Assembly: GCA_029959195.1 (NCBI GenBank)
Contig: CP114117.1
Coordinates: 1,984,001 to 2,048,000, forward strand
Reading direction: 5' to 3'
Origin: Dictyophora rubrovolvata
Lineage: Eukaryota > Basidiomycota > Agaricomycetes > Phallales > Phallaceae
Length of the DNA stretch: 64,000 nt
The notes below the pieces were generated by a model. The model had not been told where the DNA came from. It ran no database searches and saw nothing but the letters and a program-made list of their open reading frames with translations. This document shows positions 32,745-35,725 of the stretch, one piece after another. Numbering within the stretch: the first letter of the stretch is position 1; each line of letters starts with the position of its first letter. A program made the translations under genes and the position numbers.

Positions 32745-35725
32745 CTATGTTAACCCATTTACAACAGCTTGCATCCAGTTTGTTTCCAGCTCTTTCACCA
32801 CTCGTTCAAGCATATTCTTCACAGTACCTGAATCCTTCCCTTCACCTTCCAAATAATATTTGATCTGCATGGAACTTTCTTTAGAAAAACAATCTAAACC
32901 AATACACCCACCTACCTTTGGTTCAGTCCCACTAGTTCTAAGTTTGATCGTTTGAGATAAGTCAGTTATTCCATTTATATGAAGAAAACAAATGCTATAG
33001 TTATACCGCAGAGTTAAGTAGACACCGTCGGATCCCGATAGTGATTCTGCTTTAAATTGAACCATATGACCAGACGACAACGGTAATTCTGGAAGATATG
33101 AAGGTGGGTTTCCACTATCATATCCTATCGTCAGATCTCGCAACCATGTAATTGTTAAGCCCCCTATTTCACGGGGGTATCTACGATATATTCCCTGTTA
33201 ATTGAGTGAAAGGGTGAATAACCAAGCAAAACATTAATCCGCGAGTTGTGTAGATCGAGTACCTCTTCATTTGCTTCGTAATTCCGCAGCCGTGTGAAAA
33301 TTGCATTGATAATTGGAGGGGAGTCGCATACATAATAGCTATTCCGTGTCTGAAGAGAATATGTGGATCCAATTTTTCTGCTTGTCAGGGGGGGGACATA
33401 CCTCGAAATAGCCATATCTACGCTATGATTTAATCTACAAGCAAGGGAGAAAAAACATAGAAAGGACGTACTTTCCATAAAGAGACGTCAGATATTGGGA
33501 AACGGTCATACCGCGTCTCTCTAATTCTACAGCTAATCCCGCGAAAAATACCTGAAAGACATGAGGCGACGTATCATAGGGAAGAGAAGAGGGACGTACC
33601 GTCGCGGCGACACCATCTTTATCACGAATCTCGCTTCCTATCATGAACCCAATAGCCTCTTCGTATCCAAAAGGAACCTAAACTCTCAGAACGGATGGGG
33701 TTTCCAAATGAGAAGGAAGCAAATTACTTCATGACCCTGCTTGACCATGTCCAGCGCAGTATTACCAATGTATTTAAACCCAGTTAGGCATTCAACGTAT
33801 TTGAAATTTTCTCGTTTAGCCATAGCTTTCAACATCTTTGAGCTGACAGTCGAAGCTACCATCGCGAGTTTATCTTGAGACGTCAAGCATGTCAGCAATG
33901 AATAATCGTCCATATACACCATAATTCAACCCTTACTTAGAGGTTTGCCAGATGCAATGTACAGCTAATCAGAAAATTAAGTTGCCATAAAAACATTCAG
34001 TACACAAGAGTCACCTCAAACACACGAGCAGCGAATATGGTACCTAGCATATCACCGGAGAAGATTTTCCAATCCCCGTTTTTACTGACAGGATCACAGA
34101 TTGCGAGGTCGGTTTGCTTCGACGATGATCAGTTTGGATGATAGTGACTTACAGTCTTTCGGCAGCTACAAATCGGTCTGCATCTGGATCTTGGGCTAAA
34201 ACATAATTTGCTTTCTCCTCACTCCCCTTTCGCAAGGCAAGGTTCTGCCGCCGTTTTAGTCGATAAATTGTCTGGTGTTAATAAATTTCATGATAATAAC
34301 CCACCAAGGCACCTTTGCCCCAAATCAAATCAGCTGTGATTTTCATGATATATTATATAGGTCTTACCATTTTCTTCAGGATTAGGAAACTTCACTGTCG
34401 GAAATTTCGAGTCTGGCAGCTTCTGATTTTCTACCGGAATAAAGGGTGACAATCCAACAACCTCAAAAGCTTTAGAGACGTAAGAATTGCTGACACCGTG
34501 CATCGAAGTGTTGACAAATCTGAGTCGAGTTGAAGAGTTTAGTTTTCTATAAAAGATCAATATTGGTTTAATTGAATGAAGATATTTGAGTGAATACCTA
34601 GAACTAGCATCCGGAATTAGATATGAAAAGTAGCTTTCAAGGAGACCATCAGGAAGTGGATGGACAAGGGAGGAGTCAATTATATCTTTCATGCCCCAAA
34701 CTCGTGGTTCTAGGTTGCGATTGATGGCTTCAGCAATCCCTTCATCATTTGGCGGTATGATCTGGGAGGAGATGAGCTTTTGAGCAGAGAGACTTTTTTC
34801 AGAAGAAGAAATACCTGTATTGCGTTTTCCCAGTACACTTTGTAACCGTTGTCATCCTTCGGGTTATGACTCGCTGCAACAAATCTAGGTCGATACCTTA
34901 GGCTCGGATATGGCAGCATCCCGTACCTGTAATCATGACCCCTGCGGCGGCTTTCAATTTTGAAATTGAAAATGGTACCCTACGCGCGTTACAGTCAGAA
35001 CAAGATTCATTAGAGCCGAAAAAGTCCCAACGCTCTTACAATGGGGTCATGGCAAGGCCAGGCAATGGATAAACAACAAACTCAAAACTCAAAAAAACAG
35101 CCTGTGCAAGTTCTGCCCAGTGCTCCGAATTTTCACGGTGATCATGACCTTTTAAAAGTTGATTATAAACGGTCACCACCAAGAAGGGGGCCGGCCCATC
35201 TTAAATTTTAGGTTTACCTATGACGACGCCTTTGGTTCGTGCATCAGGAATTGTTTCCAAAAGGTATGCAGCGAGTCCCTCCAGAAGGCATTGCATTAGG
35301 GGCTTGTAATTGAAGATAGAAAAACATCACCTGAGAGGCTTGGATCACCACCAGGCTGTTCATTCGAGAAAATCCTGCTTCCATTCGACCTCTAAGGCGT
35401 AGAGGAAGAAGCTTTCAGATGGAGACGATTGTCAACGATCAGAAGCGGGTAGACTTATCTGCTGTACCAAACTCGATGCGGAATCTGTTTGCAGAGACAA
35501 AGGCGTTGAAGGAGTAGAAACGCGAAAGATAATGCGAACCGGAGTCTCTTTTCTAAGCCGGCCAAATCCCTAGCATCCCAAAGCTGTTCGATTTCTTTCC
35601 TGGTATGCTCTTCCTGAGCCAAGATCTGAATGATGATGCACATAGGATTGAATTGACTGTAAGTGCATTACCCTATCGAGACGCAGCCAATTTTCGACAA
35701 GATCTTCCAAGGACGTCTCCAACAT
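32745..35725 (-). CDS. PRM15: Phosphoribomutase / phosphoglucomutase, PGM2-PGM3-Prm15 type
   Basis: Alpha-D-phosphohexomutase superfamily. Yeast Prm15 (PGM3) and human PGM2 interconvert pentose-1-P and pentose-5-P and some hexose phosphates. Start ATG at 35723-35725 gives MLETSLEDLVENWLRLDR, ILAQEEHTRKEIEQLW, then FGTAGLRGRMEAG (residues joined across an AT-AC intron, see 35399-35458). Next are SRMNSLVVIQASQGLAAYLL, HDHRENSEHWAELAQAVF, VMITASHNPKDDNGYKVYW (phosphoserine), VNTSMHGVSNSYV, the metal loop DPDADRF, FGYEEAIGFMIG (sugar-binding) and the phosphate-binding LRTSGTEPKIKYYLEG. About fifteen exons. Complete. Function in ribose-5-P supply fits the pentose genes at 47-58 kb. Confidence 0.88.
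35399..35458 (-). other. Probable AT-AC (U2-type) intron, 60 bases
   Basis: On the coding strand the intron begins ATAAGT and ends CTCTAC. Removing exactly these 60 bases joins TTT GGT ACA GCA G and GC CTT AGA GGT CGA ATG, giving FGTAGLRGRM, a strongly conserved motif of this enzyme family. The best GT-AG reading (GTCTAC to TTAG) would give FGTADKGRM and lose the Gly-Leu-Arg. The 5' end resembles the U2 donor GTAAGT with G1 to A, not the U12 ATATCC. A pyrimidine run and CTGAA precede the 3' end. Confidence 0.7.

Follow-up and report, generated by a model that had tools for sequence, protein, structure and literature searches.

Whether a protein-coding gene of Dictyophora rubrovolvata, a stinkhorn mushroom of the Phallales (Agaricomycetes, Basidiomycota), is interrupted by an intron with AT-AC rather than GT-AG ends, and which spliceosome would remove it, is the question raised by a gene on the minus strand of the window analyzed here (the whole 64-kb stretch G000:C1:1984001-2048000, taken from a genome whose 11 contigs total 28,239,528 bases). 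The gene very probably contains such an intron at 35458-35399, as judged from genomic sequence and protein homology. From the ends, reading frame, protein motif and splice signals observed at this place, we infer that it would be removed in the cell as a U2-type AT-AC intron by the major spliceosome, with a probability of roughly 0.87.

Gene structure and the probable AT-AC intron

The exons were placed by reading frame, splice sites, and conserved motifs, and 20 of the 21 introns have GT-AG ends, the remaining one being AT-AC. The features needed at the outset are as follows.

32745-35725, minus strand: PGM2/phosphoribomutase-type gene, 22 exons, 593 amino acids plus stop, intact
35459-35484, minus strand: exon 3, 26 nt, which codes for FRIEFGTA and contributes the opening base of a Gly codon
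35399-35458, minus strand: AT-AC intron of 60 nt that interrupts the second Gly codon of FGTAG/LRG in phase 1
35331-35398, minus strand: exon 4, starting with the GC that completes the Gly codon, followed by LRGRMEAG

Judged by its four PGM_PMM domains, the predicted protein is a PGM2/phosphoribomutase-type alpha-D-phosphohexomutase. All four PGM/PMM domains exceed the curated Pfam cut-offs and together span the whole protein, in agreement with the gene family originally proposed, and 40 distinct solved sequences, mostly of phosphohexomutases, match it at E 0.001 or better. The gene's presumed name, phosphoribomutase (PGM2/PRM15 type), is based on family resemblance, and the activity is a predicted one.

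Preceded by CAG, the intron starts with ATAAGT and ends with CTAC. When donors from 35510 to 35401 were combined with acceptors to about 35341, allowing any dinucleotides and introns of at least 25 nt, exactly one of the pairs tried, 35458-35399, restored FGT[AS]GLRG. This bears out the original prediction, according to which excision of the 60 bases from ATAAGT to AC restores FGTAGLRGRM and no GT-AG choice does so: splicing at 35454-35392 yields FGTADKGRM, and splicing at 35539-35392 loses the motif. The GT-AG example offered there, 35453/35394, was slightly misplaced: the intron would run from the GT starting at 35454 to the last base of the TTAG, 35392, and measure 63 nt. Retention of the AT-AC intron introduces an in-frame TGA, and joining the AT donor at 35458 to the downstream TTAG shifts the frame.

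Other short exons occur in the same gene. An 8-nt microexon, GTGCCTTG (34312-34305, minus strand), is required for PEENGALNL, and NPE..GA[LMI] is found at its place in 78 of the 80 bacterial homologues described below; another exon, at 33417-33402, measures 16 nt.

For comparison with other introns, a gene finder was self-trained on 337 kb of fetched sequence, from which nine duplicate loci had been taken out and in which some overlap remained; there it called 525 GT-AG introns with a median length of 57 and a 95th percentile of about 166.

Homology evidence for the splice junctions

Homologues were sought with six peptide patterns, none of which includes the FGTAG motif, and 80 of the 295 relatives found were kept, all of them bacterial and intronless. 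FGTAG[LIM]RG is present in 80/80 (67 with L, 10 with I, and 3 with M), and the Gly, Arg, and Gly recovered by AT-AC splicing do not vary across the alignment, although the set comprises many close relatives from few genera and does not amount to 80 independent witnesses.

The best-placed alternative is a conventional GT-AG intron overlapping the AT-AC one.

35392-35454, minus strand: rival GT-AG intron GTCTAC...TTAG, 63 nt; rejected

This intron keeps the reading frame, and its acceptor is adequate (56th percentile of called introns). However, its use deletes Gly-Leu-Arg, of which Gly and Arg are invariant in all 80 homologues, and the AT-AC version scores higher against every one of them, by a median of 10 bits. 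For the N-terminal piece, the Pfam profile PGM_PMM_I gives 114.7 bits to the AT-AC version as against 103.5 and 102.3 bits to the two GT-AG versions, the 35454-35392 rival thus being 11 bits lower. Its donor, at -0.6, ranks under every one of the 525 called donors, though by construction, since the finder calls no donor under 2. Splicing at these sites therefore appears quite improbable.

Splice signals

Apart from its terminal dinucleotide, the donor of the AT-AC intron has the context of an ordinary U2-type intron, and a likely branch site can be proposed near the 3' end.

35453-35461, minus strand: 5' splice site CAG/ATAAGT, matching CAGGTAAGT at 8 of 9 positions
35415-35418, minus strand: likely branch site CTGA(A), its A lying 16 nt before the end of the intron
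35399-35402, minus strand: 3' splice site CTAC, with a pyrimidine-rich stretch before it

Only 19 of the 525 called GT donors match CAGGTAAGT at 8 or more of 9 positions, and none of the 525 outscores the donor of the AT-AC intron when its A1 is read as G. The U2-type context A+4, G+5, and T+6 is present. At the other end, the pyrimidine tract lies at the 96th percentile, and the acceptor, read as if it were AG, at the 67th percentile of called introns. In called introns, the distance between YTRAY motifs and the 3' splice site peaks at 10-17 nt, and CTGAA is enriched 3.9-fold near the 3' end. The candidate branch CTGAA fits this peak by its distance, although a pyrimidine after the A is absent. 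TTGAC and CTGAT, which lie at 33 and 40 nt, respectively, are further candidates; CTRA occurs in 98 of 446 introns at 8-20 nt and in 40 of 446 at 25-37 nt.

An error of sequencing or assembly within a GT-AG intron would be suggested by the donor, which is one base away from a perfect GT donor. However, the intron end CTAC also lacks AG, so that two independent errors would have had to fall exactly at both ends, and the published assembly is reported to derive from circular consensus reads with short-read polishing (PMC10411574). Such an error is accordingly rated as very unlikely.

A minor-spliceosome (U12-type) AT-AC intron is likewise very unlikely. AT-AC ends are typical of that class, and its branch consensus is matched at 7 of 9 positions within the intron. 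In this match, however, the A stands 1 nt before the end of the intron, and one as good occurs somewhere in 180 of 446 GT-AG introns; between 8 and 20 nt from the end, the best match to the U12 branch TTCCTTRAY is 4/9, a level reached by 444 of the 446. The donor ATAAGTCT agrees with RTATCCTT at 4 of 8 positions, which is background level (mean 3.8 in 446 GT-AG introns). The description of the donor as U2-type in the original prediction is thereby sustained. Moreover, U11, U12, U4atac, and U6atac all remained below cut-off in the 11 contigs.

Spliceosomal RNAs

Rfam families with their cut-offs were searched in the 11 contigs, and U2 was found over cut-off at six places, U6 at four, and U4 at two. 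For U12 there was no match at all in these contigs. The best U6atac match reached 18.1 bits (cut-off 33), and several of these weak hits are in fact U6; the best U4atac match reached 33.7 bits (cut-off 53), both places being U4; and the best U11 match reached 18.4 bits (cut-off 39). Similar weak matches below cut-off were obtained in prokaryotic control genomes, in 7 to 11 of 14 for U12, U6atac, and U4atac, and in 3 of 14 for U11. The original prediction had suggested that the minor spliceosome be excluded by such a search, and the outcome points in that direction, although U1 was missed as well (best 17.8 bits, cut-off 69.5); 26 copies of a U1 5'-end sequence are among the matches listed. Since fungal U1 is itself described as deviant (PMC3033335) and was missed by Rfam here, failure to match an snRNA family counts for less than it might seem to.

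The published assembly is described as comprising 132 scaffolds, with 11 chromosomes totalling 28.24 Mb, a scaffold N50 of 2,711,256, and a share of complete BUSCOs of about 80% (PMC10411574); the search covers the 11 contigs, and the published assembly contains further scaffolds. Taken together, the minor-spliceosome RNAs are likely to be absent from the genome.

Within the 64-kb window, no Rfam family exceeded its cut-off. Elsewhere, two equal-scoring U6 genes lie about 240 bases apart on opposite strands at G000:C10:915018-915485, and C7 and C4 each carry a further U6 gene. Two U4 genes, also on opposite strands, are located 29 kb apart at G000:C4:891799-920845 (L161 and L162) and give the weak U4atac matches.

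Gene finding and search for further AT-AC introns

Restricted to GT-AG introns, the finder lost the whole N-terminus of the gene, including the catalytic motif; once the AT-AC intron was favored by a bonus of 6, it reproduced 12 of the 22 placed exons exactly. GT-AG-only gene finding can thus deprive a protein of its N-terminus, catalytic motif included, which is a practical risk for annotation. An annotation pipeline might draw a GT-AG intron at 35539-35392 that skips the 26-nt exon, but this is scarcely credible: although its ends are canonical and it remains in frame through a chance LRG repeat, it deletes the FGTAG motif, scores lower than the AT-AC version against 80/80 homologues (median 21 bits), and at 148 nt is long for the called introns of this genome.

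Ab initio, the AT-AC intron gains 2.9 nats when no penalty is set, and a penalty of 3 abolishes the gain. At its donor, AC gains 2.9, TA 2.8, and TC 3.0; with TA and TC gaining about as much, the finder by itself shows no preference for AC. In view of this small gain, the case for the intron rests on homology to the bacterial proteins.

With the penalty set to 3, the finder made 6 AT-AC calls across the fetched sequence (overlapping loci counted twice), as against 3 to 10 calls for nine control dinucleotide pairs; the present intron is not among the 6, so that this is a weak test. The word CAGATAAGT occurs at 137 places genome-wide, of which 57 distinct ones were tested and about 80 left out. 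Without penalty, a gain above 1 was seen with AC acceptors at 3 of these places, one of them being the present intron, and with other dinucleotides at between 0 and 2 places; the summed gain over the 57 was largest for AC among 16 dinucleotides (15.0, the next being 10.4). The other two AC gains above 1, at L049 and L024, were rejected as ordinary coding sequence, which by eye appears to be trehalase-like and oxidase-like, respectively. No second AT-AC intron was found among the 57 of 137 CAGATAAGT donors tested.

Two further observations were made along the way. The 137 genome-wide occurrences of CAGATAAGT compare with 270 for the same word read backwards. At L059, 1091-1197, the finder strongly favors skipping about 62 bases with non-canonical ends (gains of 13.0 nats for AT-AT, 5.2 for AT-AA, and 3.7 for CT-AC), and this stretch may represent a frameshift, an erroneous gene prediction, or an unusual intron.

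Proposed mechanism and origin

In a U2-type AT-AC intron of this kind, U1 and then U6 would recognize CAG/AUAAGU through the bases around A1, and as these otherwise form a perfect consensus, the single A1 mismatch would be tolerated. The most likely site of branching would be the CUGA located 16 nt before the 3' end of the intron. At the second step, pairing of A1 with the terminal C would replace the contact that normally joins G1 and G. An A1-C contact of this type is known from intron mutants. Here it would select CTAC over the TTAG ending seven bases downstream, and would thus explain the bypass of that TTAG, which shifts the frame when joined to the AT donor.

As to origin, the intron may be a fossil, namely a former AT-AC intron of the U12 type that gained U2-type donor bases and was trapped after loss of the minor spliceosome, its AT-AC ends having persisted because both would have to change at once. 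Such a history is considered unlikely; it resembles the proposal made in PMC2831892 that U2-type AT-AC introns are trapped descendants of AT-AC U12-type introns. If it were true, close relatives would be expected to have AT-AC at the same place, and a lineage with the minor spliceosome to have an AT-AC U12-type intron there. In the original prediction, a GT-AG ancestor would instead have undergone a joint change of its first and last bases. By a rule for introns of the major spliceosome, the first base can change only in company with the last. A U2-type AT-AC intron at this site would put that rule to a clean natural test, in a genome without minor-spliceosome RNA over Rfam cut-offs.

Comparison with known AT-AC introns

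No title or abstract opening dealing with the present intron was found in the literature, which does not prove its absence there, and a fragment search of solved structures gave no match. Among some 2.3 million annotated introns of fungi, 0.019% are reported to be AT-AC (PMC7072748, section 3.1 and Table 1), a set from the same kingdom and with the same dinucleotides that is apparently not sorted into U2 and U12 types; for used splice sites in fungal pathogens, the reported share is 0.09-5.19% (PMC6176087). The statement that such introns are very rare in fungi fits the former figure but not the latter.

Among animals, the class II introns of sodium-channel genes provide a close parallel. Intron 21 of SCN4A has AT-AC ends with G at +5, as found here, and is reported to need the major spliceosome (PMC2831892), whereas the present intron is fungal, is 60 nt long, lies in a metabolic gene, and is known from genomic sequence. 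In C. elegans, 59 AT-AC introns were found, at least 42 of which are thought to be real; they share the AT-AC ends and are attributed to the U2-type spliceosome, with U11, U12, and U4atac seemingly absent (PMC3033335). That work drew on sequence alignments and hand inspection, in contrast to the genomic and homology evidence used here. AT-AC introns listed as not U12-type, identified through transcript-to-genome matches, number 3 in Rhizopus oryzae, itself a fungus, and 10 in Monosiga brevicollis (PMC2846911, Table 2). Rhizopus is reported to possess U12-type RNAs (PMC2846911), unlike the 11 contigs examined here, in which none exceeds its cut-off. AT-AC introns are thus already known in fungi, and on the genomic evidence the present intron is a further, well-supported member from a stinkhorn.
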